64,000 nucleotides of DNA from Candidatus Ruthturnera sp. Tsphm01 (GTDB lineage Bacteria; Pseudomonadota; Gammaproteobacteria; PS1; Pseudothioglobaceae): the NCBI GenBank assembly GCA_030142985.1, contig CP125320.1, forward strand, positions 439,639-503,638, read 5' to 3'. The notes beneath the pieces were generated by a model. That model did no database searches. It was not told the DNA's origin and saw only the letters and a list, made by a program, of their open reading frames with translations. The translations under genes were made by a program, and so were the position numbers. This document shows positions 39,223-61,825 of the stretch, in pieces; within the stretch, counting starts at the first letter, position 1, and each line of letters opens with the position of its first letter.

Positions 39223-40421
39223 TTTCAAAATTTTCCCTATTTTTCTATAAAAACCTAAAAAACATCTTGCTTATCTGAGTTTTCATCGCCACATTTTTCT
39301 ATTTTTACCCTTTTGCCACTCATTGGACGCAACAATCCTGCAAGTCTCGCATCTGTTTAAAAATGTTCATTCCAGTTTTAAGGTTGTGACTCATGGCAAT
39401 TAGTTGCGCTCTGGTTTTGTTTCTTTCTAGTCCAAGGTATCTTGCCTTGGCTAATCCGTGATGAAGCTTAAGTAGTCCAAAAGTGCGCTCAACAATATAG
39501 CGAATGGATGAGCGTTGTTTATTCTCTTGTTTCTGTTGCTTGGTTAAAGGCTTGTTTCTGTAGGCACGGTGCAATATTTTATTATTTTCTTTGCCTAGTT
39601 TTTCATCATTGTTTTTATTGGCATAAGCGCTATCAGCATAGACTTGTCCACATGTTTTTATTTTACTGTTAGTGCGTTCTACCTCTAATAATTTATCAAA
39701 CTCTTGTGAGTCGTGTACATTACCTGGAGTGTAAGTCATTTTCTTAACAAAACCATCTTCATCGGTATTGGCGTGCATCTTAAAACCATAGGTGGTTTTA
39801 CGTTTGCCATCGGCTGCTATTTTGACATTGTATTTTGCCTCTTTATCTTGAGTGTTGTTGCCATCCTTGCCTTTACGCTTGCGTGATTGTTTGGCTTCTA
39901 TAACGGTGGCATCAATGATGTTGATTGAACCCAAGGAAACAATGATTGAATTTTGTTCAAGATGGGTATTGATTTGCTCTAGTAGAGGCGCTAGTAATTT
40001 CTCGGTGCTGAGTAGTTGCCTGAAACGCCAAATGCTAGAATGATCAGGCACATTTTCAGACAAAGACAAATCAATAAAACGTCTGAACATTAAATCTCTG
40101 GCAATTTGCTTTTCTAGCGCCTCATCATTTAGACCGTACCAAACTTGAAGGATTAGGATTTTAAACATCATCAGTGACGGATAACTAGGTACACCTAGTC
40201 TAGATGAATACAAGTTTGAAAGTGTTTGTTCTATCTCGTTCCAGTTGATGATGTTATGTACATCATCCAGTTCTAACAGAGACTTATGCTCAACAACAAG
40301 AGAATCTGCAAATGAGTTTTGGCTGTTTGTTTCTAGGACATTTTAGATGTTTTTATAGGTTGTTTAAGATGAATGTTATTTACCAGATTGGTGAGTTTTG
40401 GTTGATTTATGCAAAACTCTC
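39223..40421 (-). mobile_element. IS5-family element, group C copy 1 (truncated, mosaic)
   Basis: The body is near-identical to copy 2 (42352-43617). The 3' end stops at TTTTGAAA without the terminal repeat. The 5' end reads GAGAGTTTTGCATAAATCAA, a diverged form of the terminal repeat. Sequence upstream of about 40265 (minus-strand 5' part) is clearly more diverged than the rest, so the copy looks like a recombinant. Confidence 0.88.
39320..40342 (-). pseudogene. IS5-family transposase (group C, copy 1), broken 5' end
   Basis: The C-terminal 297 residues are intact (TTG at 40213). The homologous ATG at 40342 is followed by a TAG (ATG TCC TAG where copy 2 has ATG TCT TGG) and a one-base shift. 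Catalytic segments IIDATVIEAKQSRK, VYADSAYANK and IRYIVERTFGLLKLHHGL remain. An N-terminally short protein from TTG is possible but probably inactive. Confidence 0.85.
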
Positions 40422-40443
40422 TAAATACAATAGAATTTTAAGT

Positions 40444-40502
40444 CGTTCTAACGCCTGAAATCACCTGACGCGTAAGCAATCAGGTGAAATGATTTGTTAG
40501 TC
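40444..40502 (-). other. Integron attC-like site
   Basis: Minus strand: begins CTAACAAATC (R''), then CACCTGA, a loop TTGCTTACGCG, TCAGGTG, and ends CAGGCGTTAGAAC (R'). The outer arms CTAAC/GTTAG and the 8-bp inner arms TCACCTGA/TCAGGTGA with unpaired bases between them are the classical attC architecture. It lies 9 bp after the stop of the TSUP gene, where a cassette attC belongs. Length about 58 bp. Confidence 0.7.
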
Positions 40503-40511
40503 TTTTTTTGA

Positions 40512-41288
40512 TTAAAAGAAAAAATTATAAAACTCTTTTATTGCAATAGTAATTACAACAATTATGAAAATAGGTTTAATAATTTTAGCACCTTTATTTA
40601 TAACTAAATGAGAACCAATAAAAGCCCCTAAAATTTGTCCAACCCCCATTATTATCCCAATTGTTATATTAACTTTTCCTAAAAATAAAAATACCAACAA
40701 TGAAATAAAATTACCAATAAAATTTAAAGGTTTTGCGTTTATAGTGGCTTGTGATGCTGTTGTACCTAATAGTACAACAAATGCCAATATCCAAATTGAG
40801 CCAGTGCCAGGCCCAAAAAAACCATTGTAAAAACCAATCACTAAACCTGACAGCATTAAGAATTTTTGCACACTTAATAATTGATGAGATTCAACATCTT
40901 TTAGCACTTTATGCGAAAACAAACTGTAAACTGCTATTAGAAGTAACAATACAGGTAGAATAAATGCTAGAGTTTTTTCATTTATCGAGTAAGCTAGCAC
41001 TGTTCCTATGATTGCGCCTATGGTGGTAAAAATAATACCATTACGCAAAAAATTAAAGTTTAAAACTTTTTTGCGAATAAAGAATACAATAGCTGAAAAC
41101 TCCCCAATAGTTGCTTGCAATCTGTTTGTTCCAAGTGCTGTAACTGGCGGTATGTTAAAAAATAATAACATTGGCAATGTTATTAACCCACCACCACCTG
41201 CAATTGTGTCAACAATGCCTGCTATTATTGCAACAAAAAATAGGGCTAATATAACAAAATAACCAATGTTGTCTAATATTTCAATCAT
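40512..41288 (-). CDS. TSUP-family permease (TauE/SafE, sulfite-exporter-like)
   Basis: 258 aa with about eight hydrophobic helices. TSUP signatures: IVDTIAGGGGLITLPMLLFF near the N-terminus and GFYNGFFGPGTGSIWILAFV in the middle. The family exports sulfite, sulfoacetate or similar organosulfur anions; substrate unknown here. The stop is 9 bp before the attC-like site, and ATG overlaps the BFD-like gene by 4 bp. It is the last gene of a three-gene unit inside a pair of inverted IS5 copies. Confidence 0.88.
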   Translation of the reverse strand: MIEILDNIGYFVILALFFVAIIAGIVDTIAGGGGLITLPMLLFFNIPPVTALGTNRLQATIGEFSAIVFFIRKKVLNFNFLRNGIIFTTIGAIIGTVLAYSINEKTLAFILPVLLLLIAVYSLFSHKVLKDVESHQLLSVQKFLMLSGLVIGFYNGFFGPGTGSIWILAFVVLLGTTASQATINAKPLNFIGNFISLLVFLFLGKVNITIGIIMGVGQILGAFIGSHLVINKGAKIIKPIFIIVVITIAIKEFYNFFF

Positions 41289-41473
41289 GCAAATCTCAAA
41301 ATAATTTTTTCTATTTCAGGTTCACATCCACCACAAGATGTAGAGGCTTTGGTTGATATTTTTATTAGACTTAAATTGTTACTCCCGTTGAGTATGCTTT
41401 CCATAATAACCTTTTCAGTAATTTTATTGCATCTACAAACAAATAATTTTGATTTAATTTCTCTAGAGGTCAT
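41285..41473 (-). CDS. BFD-like [2Fe-2S]-binding protein
   Basis: 62 aa. Cysteine pattern VCRCNKITEKVI and STSCGGCEPEIEKII (CxC ... CxxC) matches BFD-like [2Fe-2S] domains (bacterioferritin-associated ferredoxin, NirB/NifU central domain). A free-standing small electron carrier or cluster holder. It sits between, and adjoins or overlaps, the TIM-barrel and TSUP genes, so the three probably work together. Confidence 0.8.
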   Translation of the reverse strand: MTSREIKSKLFVCRCNKITEKVIMESILNGSNNLSLIKISTKASTSCGGCEPEIEKIILRFA

Positions 41474-42247
41474 TTAAACTTGCTCAAAATATTTTTTATC
41501 TTCTAATATATTTTGACTTTTTGTCTCAAAAATAACAAGACCCTGCCAATTTCTTGGCAAATATTTTTTAATTTTTTTCCAATCAATGTTTCCAGCGCCC
41601 AAGCTCGCATGCATATCTCTAATAGAATCATTGTCAGAGAGCGATACTGCACAAATGTTATTTGAGAATTCTTCAAAAAAATATGAATGATTATTGTCGC
41701 TTAGATTAAAATGCCCAACATCAAAAATTATACTTACATTTTTGTCTATTTTTTTTAATCGTTTAAAGCACTCTATACTAGAAAGCATATTAGAAAATGG
41801 ATAGTGGTTTTCAAATGAAGCTAAGTTTTCAACCCATATAGGGGCTAATAATGTATTTGCATGTTTAACAATATCTTTATAGGAAAGAATAAATTCATTA
41901 AATGCTATATTTTTATGTTCATCCATGCTTCCTGTTGTATATACTTGCCCTGCATGAAGAATATATGGACAATTTAATTTTCCAGCTAAGTCAATTTCTG
42001 ATTTAACATATTCAACAGATGCCTTTCGAATAATATCAATAGGGTGAGAAATTGCATTAGTGCCATCACCATGAATAATCGGACTGATGCTTTTATTAAG
42101 ATGTTTTTCTATTCTGACATCATTCCACTCTGACAAGGTATTTTCTTTTACTGATATATCAATATAATAGTGAGTTGCTTTTAATTGTAATCCTGTTTGT
42201 AATGCTTTTTCTGCGTTTTTATGTTGTTGAAATGCTACTTTTTTCAT
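41474..42247 (-). CDS. Xylose isomerase-like TIM-barrel protein
   Basis: 257 aa. Motifs of the AP endonuclease 2 / sugar isomerase TIM-barrel superfamily: CPYILHAGQVY, APIWVENLASFENHYPFSN, SIIFDVGHFNLS and QGLVIFETKS, giving candidate Glu/Asp/His metal ligands. The substrate cannot be told. ATCAGGAG ribosome binding site in front of the ATG. First gene of the unit; 20 bp upstream begins the conserved leader 42268-42298. Codon use is more A/T-rich than in the housekeeping genes, with Ser- and Asn-rich sequence, suggesting transfer. Confidence 0.7.
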   Translation of the reverse strand: MKKVAFQQHKNAEKALQTGLQLKATHYYIDISVKENTLSEWNDVRIEKHLNKSISPIIHGDGTNAISHPIDIIRKASVEYVKSEIDLAGKLNCPYILHAGQVYTTGSMDEHKNIAFNEFILSYKDIVKHANTLLAPIWVENLASFENHYPFSNMLSSIECFKRLKKIDKNVSIIFDVGHFNLSDNNHSYFFEEFSNNICAVSLSDNDSIRDMHASLGAGNIDWKKIKKYLPRNWQGLVIFETKSQNILEDKKYFEQV

Positions 42248-42267
42248 TTTTACTCCTGATGTTAGGC

Positions 42268-42298
42268 TAACTATTAGTATAAGGACATATTTCCTTAT
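42268..42298 (-). promoter_or_regulatory. Conserved palindromic leader, copy a
   Basis: Plus strand TAACTATTAGTATAAGG then ACATATTTCCTTAT. Arms ATAAGGA/TCCTTAT. Directly upstream of the three-gene unit. Same sequence occurs at 46195 and 61764. To the right the similarity ends at an IS5 end (GAGACCTTTGCATAG, 42299). Confidence 0.75.
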
Positions 42299-42351: not shown

Positions 42352-43617
42352 GAGACCTTTGCATAAATCAACTAAAAACCCAACAATCTAGTAAAATAAC
42401 ACCCATCTAAAAACAACTTTAAAAATATCAAAAATGTCTTGGAAAAACACCCAACAAAACTCATTTGCAGATTCTCTTGTTGTAGATCACAAATCCCTAT
42501 CAGAACTTGATGATGTACATAACATCATCAACTGGAACGAGATAGAACAAACACTTTCAAACTTGTATTCATCTAGACTAGGTGTACCTAGTTATCCGTC
42601 ACTGATGATGTTTAAAATCCTAATCCTTCAAGTTTGGTACGGTCTAAATGATGAGGCGCTAGAAAAGCAAATTGCCAGAGATTTAATGTTCAGACGTTTT
42701 ATTGATTTGTCTTTGTCTGAAAATGTGCCTGATCATTCTAGCATTTGGCGTTTCAGGCAACTACTCAGCACCGAGAAATTACTAGCGCCTCTACTAGAGC
42801 AAATCAATACCCATCTTGAACAAAATTCAATCATTGTTTCCTTGGGTTCAATCAACATCATTGATGCCACCGTTATAGAAGCCAAACAATCACGCAAGCG
42901 TAAAGGCAAGGATGGCAACAACACTCAAGACAAAGAGGCAAAATACAATGTCAAAATAGCAGCCGATGGCAAACGTAAAACCACCTATGGTTTTAAGATG
43001 CACGCCAATACCGATGAAGATGGTTTTGTTAAGAAAATGACTTACACTCCAGGTAATGTACACGACTCACAAGAGTTTGATAAATTATTAAAGGTAGAAC
43101 GCACTAACAGTAAAATAAAAACATGTGGACAAGTCTATGCTGATAGCGCTTATGCCAATAAAAACAATGATGAAAAACTAGGCAAAGAAAATAATAAAAT
43201 ATTGCACCGTGCCTACAGAAACAAGCCTTTAACCAAGCAACAGAAACAAGAGAATAAACAACGCTCATCCATTCGCTATATTGTTGAGCACACTTTTGGA
43301 CTACTTAAGCTTCATCACGGATTAGCCAAGGCAAGATACCTTGGACTAGAAAGAAACAAAACCAGAGCGCAACTAATTGCCATGAGTCACAACCTTAAAA
43401 CTGGAATGAACATTTTTAAACAGATGCGAGACTTGCAGGATTGTTGCGTCCAATGAGTGGCAAAAGGGTAAAAATAGAAAAATGTGGCGATGAAAATTCA
43501 GATAAGCAAGATGTTTTTTAGGTTTTTATAGAAAAATAGGGAAAATTTTGAAAATATTTTTGAAAAATTGTAAAAGTTGAAATTAGGATGGGGAATTATG
43601 AATTATTCAAAGGTCTC
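42352..43617 (+). mobile_element. IS5-family element, group C copy 2, complete
   Basis: 1266 bp between GAGACCTTTGCATAA (42352) and its inverse (ending 43617, GAGACCTTTGAATAA). It carries one intact transposase. A second copy of the GAGACCTTTGCATA end is 53 bp to the left (42299), so an older element end lies beside it. It truncates a small ORF following the methyltransferase on the right. Confidence 0.92.
42434..43456 (+). CDS. IS5-family transposase (group C, copy 2)
   Basis: 340 aa. N-terminal DUF772-like region (SRLGVPSYPSLMMFKILILQ, VWYGLNDEALEKQIARDLMF, VPDHSSIWRFRQLL) and a DDE core with IIDATVIEA, YADSAYANKN and RYIVEHTFGLLKLHHGLAKA. Full length, so probably functional. It can act on the related ends scattered through the window. 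Confidence 0.93.
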   Translation: MSWKNTQQNSFADSLVVDHKSLSELDDVHNIINWNEIEQTLSNLYSSRLGVPSYPSLMMFKILILQVWYGLNDEALEKQIARDLMFRRFIDLSLSENVPDHSSIWRFRQLLSTEKLLAPLLEQINTHLEQNSIIVSLGSINIIDATVIEAKQSRKRKGKDGNNTQDKEAKYNVKIAADGKRKTTYGFKMHANTDEDGFVKKMTYTPGNVHDSQEFDKLLKVERTNSKIKTCGQVYADSAYANKNNDEKLGKENNKILHRAYRNKPLTKQQKQENKQRSSIRYIVEHTFGLLKLHHGLAKARYLGLERNKTRAQLIAMSHNLKTGMNIFKQMRDLQDCCVQ

Positions 43618-46033: not shown

Positions 46034-46198
46034 CGTATAACGGGTGGCGATAACTTGCGTAGCAAGATTTGTTTAGAGTTTACTTTACTTCAAATCTGAT
46101 AGGCAGGTTGATTGGCTTGTTAGACGCCAAAGGCGGTCTAACAAGCCAATCTGTTATTGCCACCCGTTAGATGCGACCGCTCTGCGGTCGCATCTAAC
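46034..46198 (-). other. Long attC-like inverted-repeat array
   Basis: Three nested or adjacent inverted repeats: outer arms ATAACGGGTGGCGATAAC (46037) and GTTATTGCCACCCGTTAG (46153); inner arms ATTGGCTTGTTAGACGCC (46111) and GGCGGTCTAACAAGCCAAT (46132, one bulged G); and a perfect 15-bp-stem hairpin GTTAGATGCGACCGC / GCGGTCGCATCTAAC (46166-46198). The GTTAGAY / RTCTAAC boxes match attC core consensus (GTTRRRY / RYYYAAC), and the size suits long VCR-type attC. A homologous stretch is at 60905-60998. It lies between leader b and the methyltransferase, like the attC of a gene-less cassette. Confidence 0.55.
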
Positions 46199-46256
46199 TA
46201 TTAATATAAGGACATATTTCCTTATATTACTATATTAAAGAAAAATTATGTAAAAA
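46195..46256 (-). promoter_or_regulatory. Conserved palindromic leader, copy b
   Basis: TAACTATTAATATAAGG, ACATATTTCCTTATATTAC, then TATATTAAAG...TTATGTAAAAA. About 60 bp match copy c at 61764-61825. Arms ATAAGGA/TCCTTAT. On the minus strand it ends in AATAGTTAGATG, i.e. at a GTTRRRY box. Confidence 0.75.
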
Positions 46257-59596: not shown

Positions 59597-60882
59597 AGGT
59601 TTTGCCTATTCCTAATATTACTTTGACAGCATTATGTTATGCCAATCCTATACGTTATCCATTTTTACTAGAAAGCGTTAATCACAATGCTAACAATCGT
59701 TTTTCGATACTATTTGCACATCCTGGTAAAAAAATTATACTAAATCACTTAGAAGAGTTTGACTTTTTAGATAAATTAACCACCAATATCGATACACCAT
59801 TCATTTGTAGTGATTTACCTTTTACTGGCGGTTGGTTTGTATATCTCTCTTATGAATTAATTGGGCAAATAGAGCCTATTTTAAAGCAAACAATGCACGC
59901 AAGCGACCAACCTATTGCCATTGCTGTGCAAATCCCCACAGCCATTATTATTGACCATACCAATCATCAAACCTACTTATTAGACCAATTTGACAACCAA
60001 CACAGAATAGACCAAGTATTGGCAGATATTAAGCAATTAAAAGTTGTGCCTGAGCGTAAATTAGCAGGCGTTTTATCCTCTGAAGACGAGGCTAAATTTT
60101 TATCAGACGTGACAAAAAGTCGTGAGTACATCAAAGCAGGAGATGTTTTTCAAGTAAACCTTTCAAGACAGTGGCAATATCACTTAACCAATGACATAAC
60201 CCCAGCCCAAATTTACCAAGCACTAAAAAAAACCAACCCCGCCCCATTTTCCGCACTGGTGCAATTCCAAGAATTTAGCATTATTTCATCCTCTCCCGAG
60301 CGTTTATTTAGCGTAGACGGCAACACCATACAAACCAGACCCATTGCAGGTACCCATCCACGTGGCATAGGCAGTGAAGACAAGCGTCTTAAACAACAAC
60401 TCATCAACCACCCTAAAGAACAAGCAGAGCATATTATGCTACTTGATTTAGAACGCAATGATTTGGGCAGAGTATGTGAATACGGCAGTATTAAAGTTGA
60501 TGAAATCATGGGGTTAGAGAGTTATCCCTTTGTACATCATATCGTTTCAAATATCAAAGGCAAAATAAAACCAAACACCACCATTAAACACCTAATCAGC
60601 GCACTATTTCCAGGTGGCACCATTACTGGTTGCCCTAAAATTCGTTGTATGCAAATTATTAAAGAACTTGAACAAATGCCACGCCAAGCCTATACAGGCT
60701 CACTAGGCTATATCAGTAGCAATGGGAAAATGGATTTTAACATCCTTATTCGCACTATTAGCAAGCAAGGCAATTTACTAATTTTAAGAGCAGGGGCGGG
60801 CATTGTATTTGATTCTATCGCCAAACAAGAATTGCAAGAAACCAAACATAAAGCCAAAGGCATGCTTCAGATTTTTGCATAG
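59593..60882 (+). CDS. pabB: Aminodeoxychorismate synthase component I
   Basis: 429 aa, near PabB size and shorter than TrpE. Chorismate-binding domain with SREYIKAGDVFQVNLSRQW, ISSSPERLFSVDGNTIQTRP, IAGTHPRG, LLDLERNDLGRVCEYGSIKV and GGTITGCPKIRCMQIIKELE. It makes ADC from chorismate for folate synthesis, with PabA supplying ammonia. The family also includes anthranilate synthase; length and the GCPKIRCM variant favour PabB. GTG start overlaps cpoB. Confidence 0.85.
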   Translation: MKVLPIPNITLTALCYANPIRYPFLLESVNHNANNRFSILFAHPGKKIILNHLEEFDFLDKLTTNIDTPFICSDLPFTGGWFVYLSYELIGQIEPILKQTMHASDQPIAIAVQIPTAIIIDHTNHQTYLLDQFDNQHRIDQVLADIKQLKVVPERKLAGVLSSEDEAKFLSDVTKSREYIKAGDVFQVNLSRQWQYHLTNDITPAQIYQALKKTNPAPFSALVQFQEFSIISSSPERLFSVDGNTIQTRPIAGTHPRGIGSEDKRLKQQLINHPKEQAEHIMLLDLERNDLGRVCEYGSIKVDEIMGLESYPFVHHIVSNIKGKIKPNTTIKHLISALFPGGTITGCPKIRCMQIIKELEQMPRQAYTGSLGYISSNGKMDFNILIRTISKQGNLLILRAGAGIVFDSIAKQELQETKHKAKGMLQIFA

Positions 60883-60904
60883 CGCTTATCCTGTCTAGTA
60901 AATT

Positions 60905-60998
60905 TATTCAGAGTTTGCTCTATTTTAAATCTGCTAGGTCAGGTGGTTGATTGGCTTGTTAGACGTTACAGACGGCCTAGCAAGATAATCTATTATTG
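60905..60998 (-). other. attC-like element following the DUF4145 cassette
   Basis: Plus strand AGAGTTTGCTCTATTTTAAA...GGTTGATTGGCTTGTTAGAC, then ...CTATTATTGGCTTTGTTATGCC. It aligns with 46073-46160 (AGAGTTTACTTTACTTCAAA, GGTTGATTGGCTTGTTAGAC, CTGTTATTGCC). It contains GTTAGAC and GTTATGCC boxes. The inner inverted repeat is more decayed than at 46111. It lies directly after the stop of the DUF4145 gene (minus strand), the position of an attC in a cassette. Confidence 0.5.
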
Positions 60999-61004
60999 GC
61001 TTTG

Positions 61005-61749
61005 TTATGCCTTTTTATCTACACCTTTTGCATCATTTATTCGTGCAACTAATGGTGTAATTGACGCTTTCTTTTCAGGATATAATTCAACGAGTATGTG
61101 CTTGAAAATTCTATAGCCATTAAGAACATCTATTCTACTGACCTTAGAACCGTGGTGTGCCCCGTCATTACCAAGCCATTTAATTGCCTTTGCGTGCTCT
61201 AAAATTTTTGCATTGTTTCCAGATAATGAATTAATTCGTTTATCTAGAGATATAAAATCACCGTTTTTAGTTACTGACGCAACCTTTATTTCCTCAAGCA
61301 GAGTCTCAAGCGCTATACGCAAAGTGCTAAGGCTTGCACTTGGTGAGATAAAGAATATTGAAAATGAAGTTTCAAGTGCCTTACTAACCAAATCAGGTGT
61401 ATCCTTTGGAGGTATAAACATACGAAGTGGAGGTTCAAAGAACTTAACTTTAAAATTATCAACCCAATCCCAGTCACTTGAACCATTTTCAAGACATATC
61501 TCCAGTACCTGCGCATACAACTTGACAGCCACACGAATGACTAGTACATTTTAGGCTCATGCTGAATACGTACTCAGTCAATTCAGGTCCAGGATTTGGA
61601 TGATTGGTATCGAGTGGTATTTTGTATTTTTTTTTAAACTGATCATCCTTGGAAAGTGATAACGAACCAACTTCGCAAACTGGGCAAGGCCAAGCAGGAA
61701 TGCTCTTATGAATAAAGTCTGCAGTAAAAGTAAGTAAATTATCATCCAT
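61005..61749 (-). pseudogene. DUF4145-domain protein gene, frameshifted
   Basis: Two overlapping frames. The 5' part (61749-61489) has a zinc-like N-terminus WPCPVCEVGSLSL and CTSHSCGC. The 3' part (61532-61005) has VAVKLYAQVLEIC, FFEPPLRMFIPPKDTPDLVS, LRIALETLLEEIKVASVTK and IKWLGNDGAHHGS, typical of DUF4145. They join at about 61520 if one base is removed (HSCG to VAVKLY). DUF4145 proteins often accompany defence or restriction genes, with no known activity. Two separate small proteins cannot be excluded. Confidence 0.75.
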
Positions 61750-61763
61750 TCTCTATGTTTCCA

Positions 61764-61825
61764 TAACTATTAATATAAGGACGTATCTCCTTATATTGCG
61801 ATATTGAAATAAATTTATGTAAAAA
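61764..61825 (-). promoter_or_regulatory. Conserved palindromic leader, copy c
   Basis: TAACTATTAATATAAGG, ACGTATCTCCTTATATTGC, then ATATTGAAATAAATTTATGT. Arms ATAAGGA(G)/(C)TCCTTAT keep pairing despite two changes (ACAT to ACGT and TTTC to CTCC, one base each). It matches copy b for about 60 bp. It lies 14 bp upstream of the DUF4145 start. Confidence 0.75.

Follow-up and report, generated by a model that had tools for sequence, protein, structure and literature searches.

The window analysed here is a stretch of 64,000 nucleotides from the genome of a clam-symbiont relative (G000; one contig of 1,523,273 bp). Its minus strand carries an integrated cassette of 1,819 bp (40452..42270), the borders of which are the computed G^TT crossover positions of an attI and an attC site. 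The cassette holds three genes, encoding a xylose-isomerase-like TIM barrel (AP_endonuc_2) of 257 aa (41474..42247; Pfam PF01261, 5.1e-21), a BFD-like [2Fe-2S] protein of 62 aa (41285..41473; PF04324, 1.1e-12) and a TauE/SafE (TSUP) permease of 258 aa (40512..41288; PF01925, 7.7e-48). It begins at the crossover (between 42271 and 42270) of a 31-nt attI remnant on the same strand (42268..42298), which has two mismatches to the attI linked to the integrase gene intI, and it is closed by a 57-nt attC (40446-40502). The locus is bordered by two copies of the same insertion sequence (IS) in opposite orientation, with nearly identical transposase ORFs, one on the attC side (39320..40213, minus strand) and the other adjoining the attI remnant (42434..43456, plus strand). 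The end of the latter IS has removed the upstream part of the attI, leaving 27 bp upstream of the crossover, and for this reason the window attI may be dead.

Within the bacterial family a full-length homologue of the TSUP permease, with 83% identity, was found only in G052, and the gene is absent from all 11 congeners. In G052 (L220, 2277-2330) a decayed stretch resembling attC comes after the homologous gene and adjoins an IS-like end. On the other side of the window attC, the approximately 30 nt directly past the crossover (40422-40451; TTAGAACGACTTAAAATTCTATTGTATTTA) are the same as those past another attC 31 kb away. This second copy (L020:7577-7606, at 511.5 kb of G000) is the only other one in the genus, and it may reflect a duplication or a shared start of the next cassette.

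The attC site and the boundaries of its cassette

The minus strand of the attC reads GACTAAC-AAATCATT-TCACCTGA-T-TGC-TTAC-GCG-TCAGGTGA-TTTCAGGC-GTTAGAA (in full, GACTAACAAATCATTTCACCTGATTGCTTACGCGTCAGGTGATTTCAGGCGTTAGAA). R'' (40502-40496) starts 9 bp past the TSUP stop codon and R' lies at 40452-40446, an assignment supported by the covariance model described below, by the folds and by a near-identical attC located beside intI. The sequence is as described in an earlier note on this DNA, which had pointed to outer and inner arms, spacers and an attC-type end 9 bp after a stop codon. The R''/R' and L''/L' inverted arms, the GTT(A) crossover and the single-strand fold are all present, and the element contains a perfect 8-bp stem. 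Depending on the comparison, its fold was matched or beaten by 0, 1 or 2 of 200 shuffled sequences, on either strand, the bottom strand folding slightly better than the other (−9.9 vs −8.5 kcal/mol). One unpaired extra base is clear, on the L'' side at plus-strand coordinate 40479; it is an A on the folded strand, against G in the family consensus. With respect to the extrahelical bases that the note had proposed to look for, a one-base asymmetry of the kind needed by IntI appears in the fold, whereas the usual number and identity of such bases are not exactly matched.

Scans with attC regular expressions yielded many weak chance hairpins, and a covariance model (R1) was used instead. It was built from nine aligned attCs of plasmid-borne resistance integrons, none from the symbiont lineage under study, with the R and L helices specified. 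In the 64 kb window the model gave a single and strong match, the minus-strand segment 40446-40502 (36.6 bits, E 3.5e-9), while an Rfam scan of the same 64 kb returned no match. This lone hit to a model of clinical sites, together with the finding that at most 2 of 200 shuffles fold as well, argues against a chance hairpin. The description of the element as a textbook attC is supported, neither of the two outcomes that the note had named as refuting it having occurred. Clinical attCs match the element in both sequence and spacing over its whole length, and it represents an established type of site in ordinary form.

A hairpin 9 bp past a stop codon, with a perfect 8-bp stem, might also be a transcription terminator or some other stem-loop. 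Against this stand the match to clinical attCs from end to end, the lack of a T run behind the stem when read as TSUP is transcribed, and the complementarity of R'' to the start of the cassette throughout the family, which would not be expected of a terminator. On these three grounds (no T run, the covariance-model match and the start/R'' complementarity) a stem-loop other than attC was rejected, and we regard it as hardly conceivable.

The last of these grounds follows from the way in which cassettes integrate. The start of a cassette supplies the missing part of its own R' half-site, the two being joined in the circular form. At the intI locus R'' (GTATAAC) and the cassette start (GTTATAC) are exactly complementary, and 12 of 20 attI-attC pairs in the family match at all seven positions. 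The window cassette is not among them, its start GTTAGCC agreeing with the reverse complement of R'' (GACTAAC) at six of seven. Over the 20 pairs 46 of the 60 free positions match, whereas 100,000 shuffles gave 24.4 on average and never more than 40. This complementarity is evidence independent of hairpin shape. Judged from the sequence, the hairpin is an authentic attC at the end of an integron cassette of three genes; that the site, its cassette and the integron system to which both belong are real is almost certain.

One intact integrase and many scattered attI sites

An intact intI gene is located at 1146394-1147347, 0.66 Mb from the window attC. Its product scores 426 bits against TIGR02249 (cut-off 265), retains the catalytic motifs and has as its closest solved structure the Vibrio IntI (2A3V), to which it aligns over the full length, the IntI-specific insert included. 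The dN/dS of intI against relatives is 0.06-0.16, with divergent pairs near synonymous saturation, and the gene is therefore subject to purifying selection. Next to intI are an attI, a methyltransferase-like cassette gene and the attC that is almost identical to that of the window. As intI is this distant, and none occurs within 1.3 kb upstream beside the attI of the window cassette, the window locus is the cassette locus of an integron and not a complete integron in cis.

A covariance search of the whole genome returned six clear attCs, at 1290533, 1147988, 480084 (the window site), 1303960, 661437 and 511525, and a seventh, weaker one of 99 nt at 661811. At 612417 there is a truncated site with a covariance-model score at noise level, the right half of which matches the family sequence. 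The integrase gene occurs in eight genomes of the family, all within the same three genera as the attI motif. Matches to the attC model were also seen in two genomes (G002 and G080) from genera (g3 and g10) that lack any match to intI or the attI motif. The view in the earlier note that integron cassettes are unfamiliar in symbionts of this type is only partly right, as IntegronFinder results are tabulated for mussel symbionts, with CALIN and In0 elements in the Bathymodiolus septemdierum symbiont and CALIN in the B. thermophilus symbiont (PMC10295459, Table 1). No mention of integrons was found in a full-text search of the accessible literature on vesicomyid, Ruthia or Ruthturnera. The intact integrase, the complete cassette with its upstream attI and two further attI-cassette loci within the window go beyond what the note had described.

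The attI motif is present in six copies in the genome, three of them within the window (42268, 46195 and 61764), and only one adjoins intI; the reversed pattern, used as a control, had no match in this genome. In the family the motif was detected in 18 of 83 genomes from three genera, the highest copy number per genome being seven; these counts include a few weak false matches in coding sequence. Two such protein-coding matches (L067 and L095) were excluded from testing. The scattered pattern recurs in related symbionts of clams and mussels. Past the crossover most copies adjoin differing sequence.

The second attI of the window (46195..46225, minus strand) lies downstream of metH, shares approximately 148 bp with the intI-attI spacer and is found after metH in G039 as well. 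It is occupied by a gene-less cassette of 157 bp (46041..46197, minus strand) whose start, GTTAGAT, is the reverse complement of R'' (ATCTAAC) at all seven positions and whose 138-nt attC (46035-46172) folds with z scores of −9.1 and −12.4, obtained for a range shifted by 1 nt. Gene-less cassettes in which a long attC is combined with the perfect hairpin GTTAGATGCGACCGC/GCGGTCGCATCTAAC, or with one closely similar to it, occur at several attI sites and in several genomes (window 46041-46197, L071, L077, L097 and L192); a second type starts with GTTCACACGGCGC (L023 and L027). The third attI (61764..61794, minus strand) lies downstream of nadE and is orthologous to the attI between nadE and pabB in G036 and G042. 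Its cassette (60877..61767, minus strand) contains an interrupted DUF4145 gene (open part 61005-61532; PF13643, 5.6e-15) and terminates in a decayed, long attC-like end on the same strand (about 60877-61010), in which R'' (GCATAAC) agrees with the cassette start (GTTATGG) at six of seven positions and R' is degenerate. The interruption of the gene (61005-61749) appears to be a frameshift. There is no trace of intI beside the nadE or the metH attI in this genome, 1.3 kb upstream having been inspected at nadE.

The attI copies have about 100-150 bp of the intI-attI spacer in common, and several solitary ones are flanked by 5' remnants of intI. In G051 (L082:495-615) an attC crossover is directly adjoined by an attI fragment (TTATATTTACATAG...), as though a cassette had carried the attI along at its start. 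Scattered copies with a common length of this order might represent a MITE-like mobile repeat that spreads by itself and is merely used by IntI as a target. The fragment behind the attC in L082 suggests that attI can travel, and cassettes of the delta-attI type are known from class 1 and class 2 integrons (PMC12901181). Homology between the copies, however, runs out around the start codon of intI, and coding remnants of intI persist in some, which gives the copies the appearance of fragments of the intI-attI platform; moreover, constant ends or target duplications were not identified. An autonomous repeat is therefore an improbable origin for the attI copies.

Different cassettes at orthologous attI sites and the proposed use of the integrase

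At nadE-pabB the flank and the attI are common to G000, G036 and G042, and similarity stops right at the crossover. The attI is followed by the interrupted DUF4145 cassette in G000 and by a gene-less cassette in the other two, while in G040 there is other DNA behind a diverged attI. In G044 restriction-modification-like genes are followed by an attC that adjoins pabB. The genes between attI and attC in this genome (L245:2128-3988) are a DNA-methylase-like gene and an upstream partner, which may encode a restriction enzyme. The attI copy of G041 was not counted as orthologous, as nadE is not beside it in the stretch read. The metH attI likewise holds a gene-less cassette in G000 and a different gene in G039. 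Exact junctions at orthologous attI sites are what an integron integrase makes. The differences could nevertheless date from an era in which intI was adjacent, or could have arisen as parts of an older array were differentially lost.

Taken together, the data are best explained by an integron attC and cassette inserted by integrase at attI, with scattered attI sites that derive from the intI-attI platform, a reading to which we assign a probability of about 0.9. The integrase would bind the folded bottom strand of attC and cut it between G and TT, and a circular TIM-barrel/BFD/TSUP cassette would thus have been inserted at the window attI, before the IS took away the upstream part of that site. 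The attI copies would be copied intI-attI spacers, several with the 5' remnants of intI mentioned above, left behind after decay of intI or excision by an IS. As most copies lack an intact adjoining intI, we infer that a single integrase serves many scattered docking sites in trans, a step that has about even odds.

It is this step alone that is opposed by an alternative in which the dispersed attI sites are fossils of several complete integrons, each once with its own intI, of which all but one have decayed, and in which nothing acts in trans now; the attC and the cassette stand either way. The intI remnants beside solitary attI copies and the truncation of the window attI by an IS fit such a history, and multiple or pseudogene copies of intI are common in integron lineages (PMC2426708). 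It accounts less readily for the nadE attI, which in G000 has no trace of intI in the 1.3 kb upstream and yet is filled by different cassettes in congeners at the same crossover, or for the persistence of an intact IntI under purifying selection. A purely fossil origin has, in our judgement, somewhat less than an even chance. The fullest form of the in-trans reading is a distributed integron, in which one conserved integrase would act on many orphan attI sites, each with about one exchangeable cassette beside housekeeping genes; such a system, kept across the symbionts of vesicomyid clams and Bathymodiolus and possibly moving genes between them, is a proposition that could fall either way.

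Comparison with known integrons

An integron is commonly pictured as a single platform with a single array. Where docking sites are scattered and multiplied, every captured cassette can adjoin a platform instead of disappearing into a long array. The setting is one of lineages with reduced, partly vertically inherited genomes, which are believed to gain genes only rarely, and how such symbionts come by defence and metabolic genes can be addressed directly at these loci. Most of the scattered loci would be missed by standard integron software, which has no attI model beyond class 1 and by default discards lone attCs. In IntegronFinder 2.0 the attI search is confined to class 1, and two attCs are the default for CALIN (PMC9024848). 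The dispersed layout, in which attI is mostly orphan, is a new form of integron, and in the part of the literature covered by our search no report of many scattered attI sites was found.

The window attC resembles the aadA- and catB-type attCs (59-be) of class 1 integrons in its length (57-60 nt), the TAACAAnTCATT spacer, the L''/L' arms, the TTCAGGCGTTA end and the one-base asymmetry, but it differs in the sequence of the L arms and in its 4-nt loop with a 3-bp tip stem. Sedentary chromosomal integrons have in common with the symbiont system the IntI subfamily, an attI beside a divergent intI and homogeneous cassette attCs. In contrast to these integrons, the symbionts have one or few cassettes at each dispersed attI, mostly without intI, and no single array. 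The loci are like CALIN and SALIN elements in having attC without an adjoining intI, although each symbiont locus has its own attI. A parallel to this feature is the Shewanella prophage M16-3, which carries a complete integron and a CALIN with its own attI (PMC9892861), so that there too one genome contains an additional attI that lacks intI. Whereas the prophage combines two loci in a single element, the symbiont system extends to six or seven loci over the chromosome and across a bacterial family.
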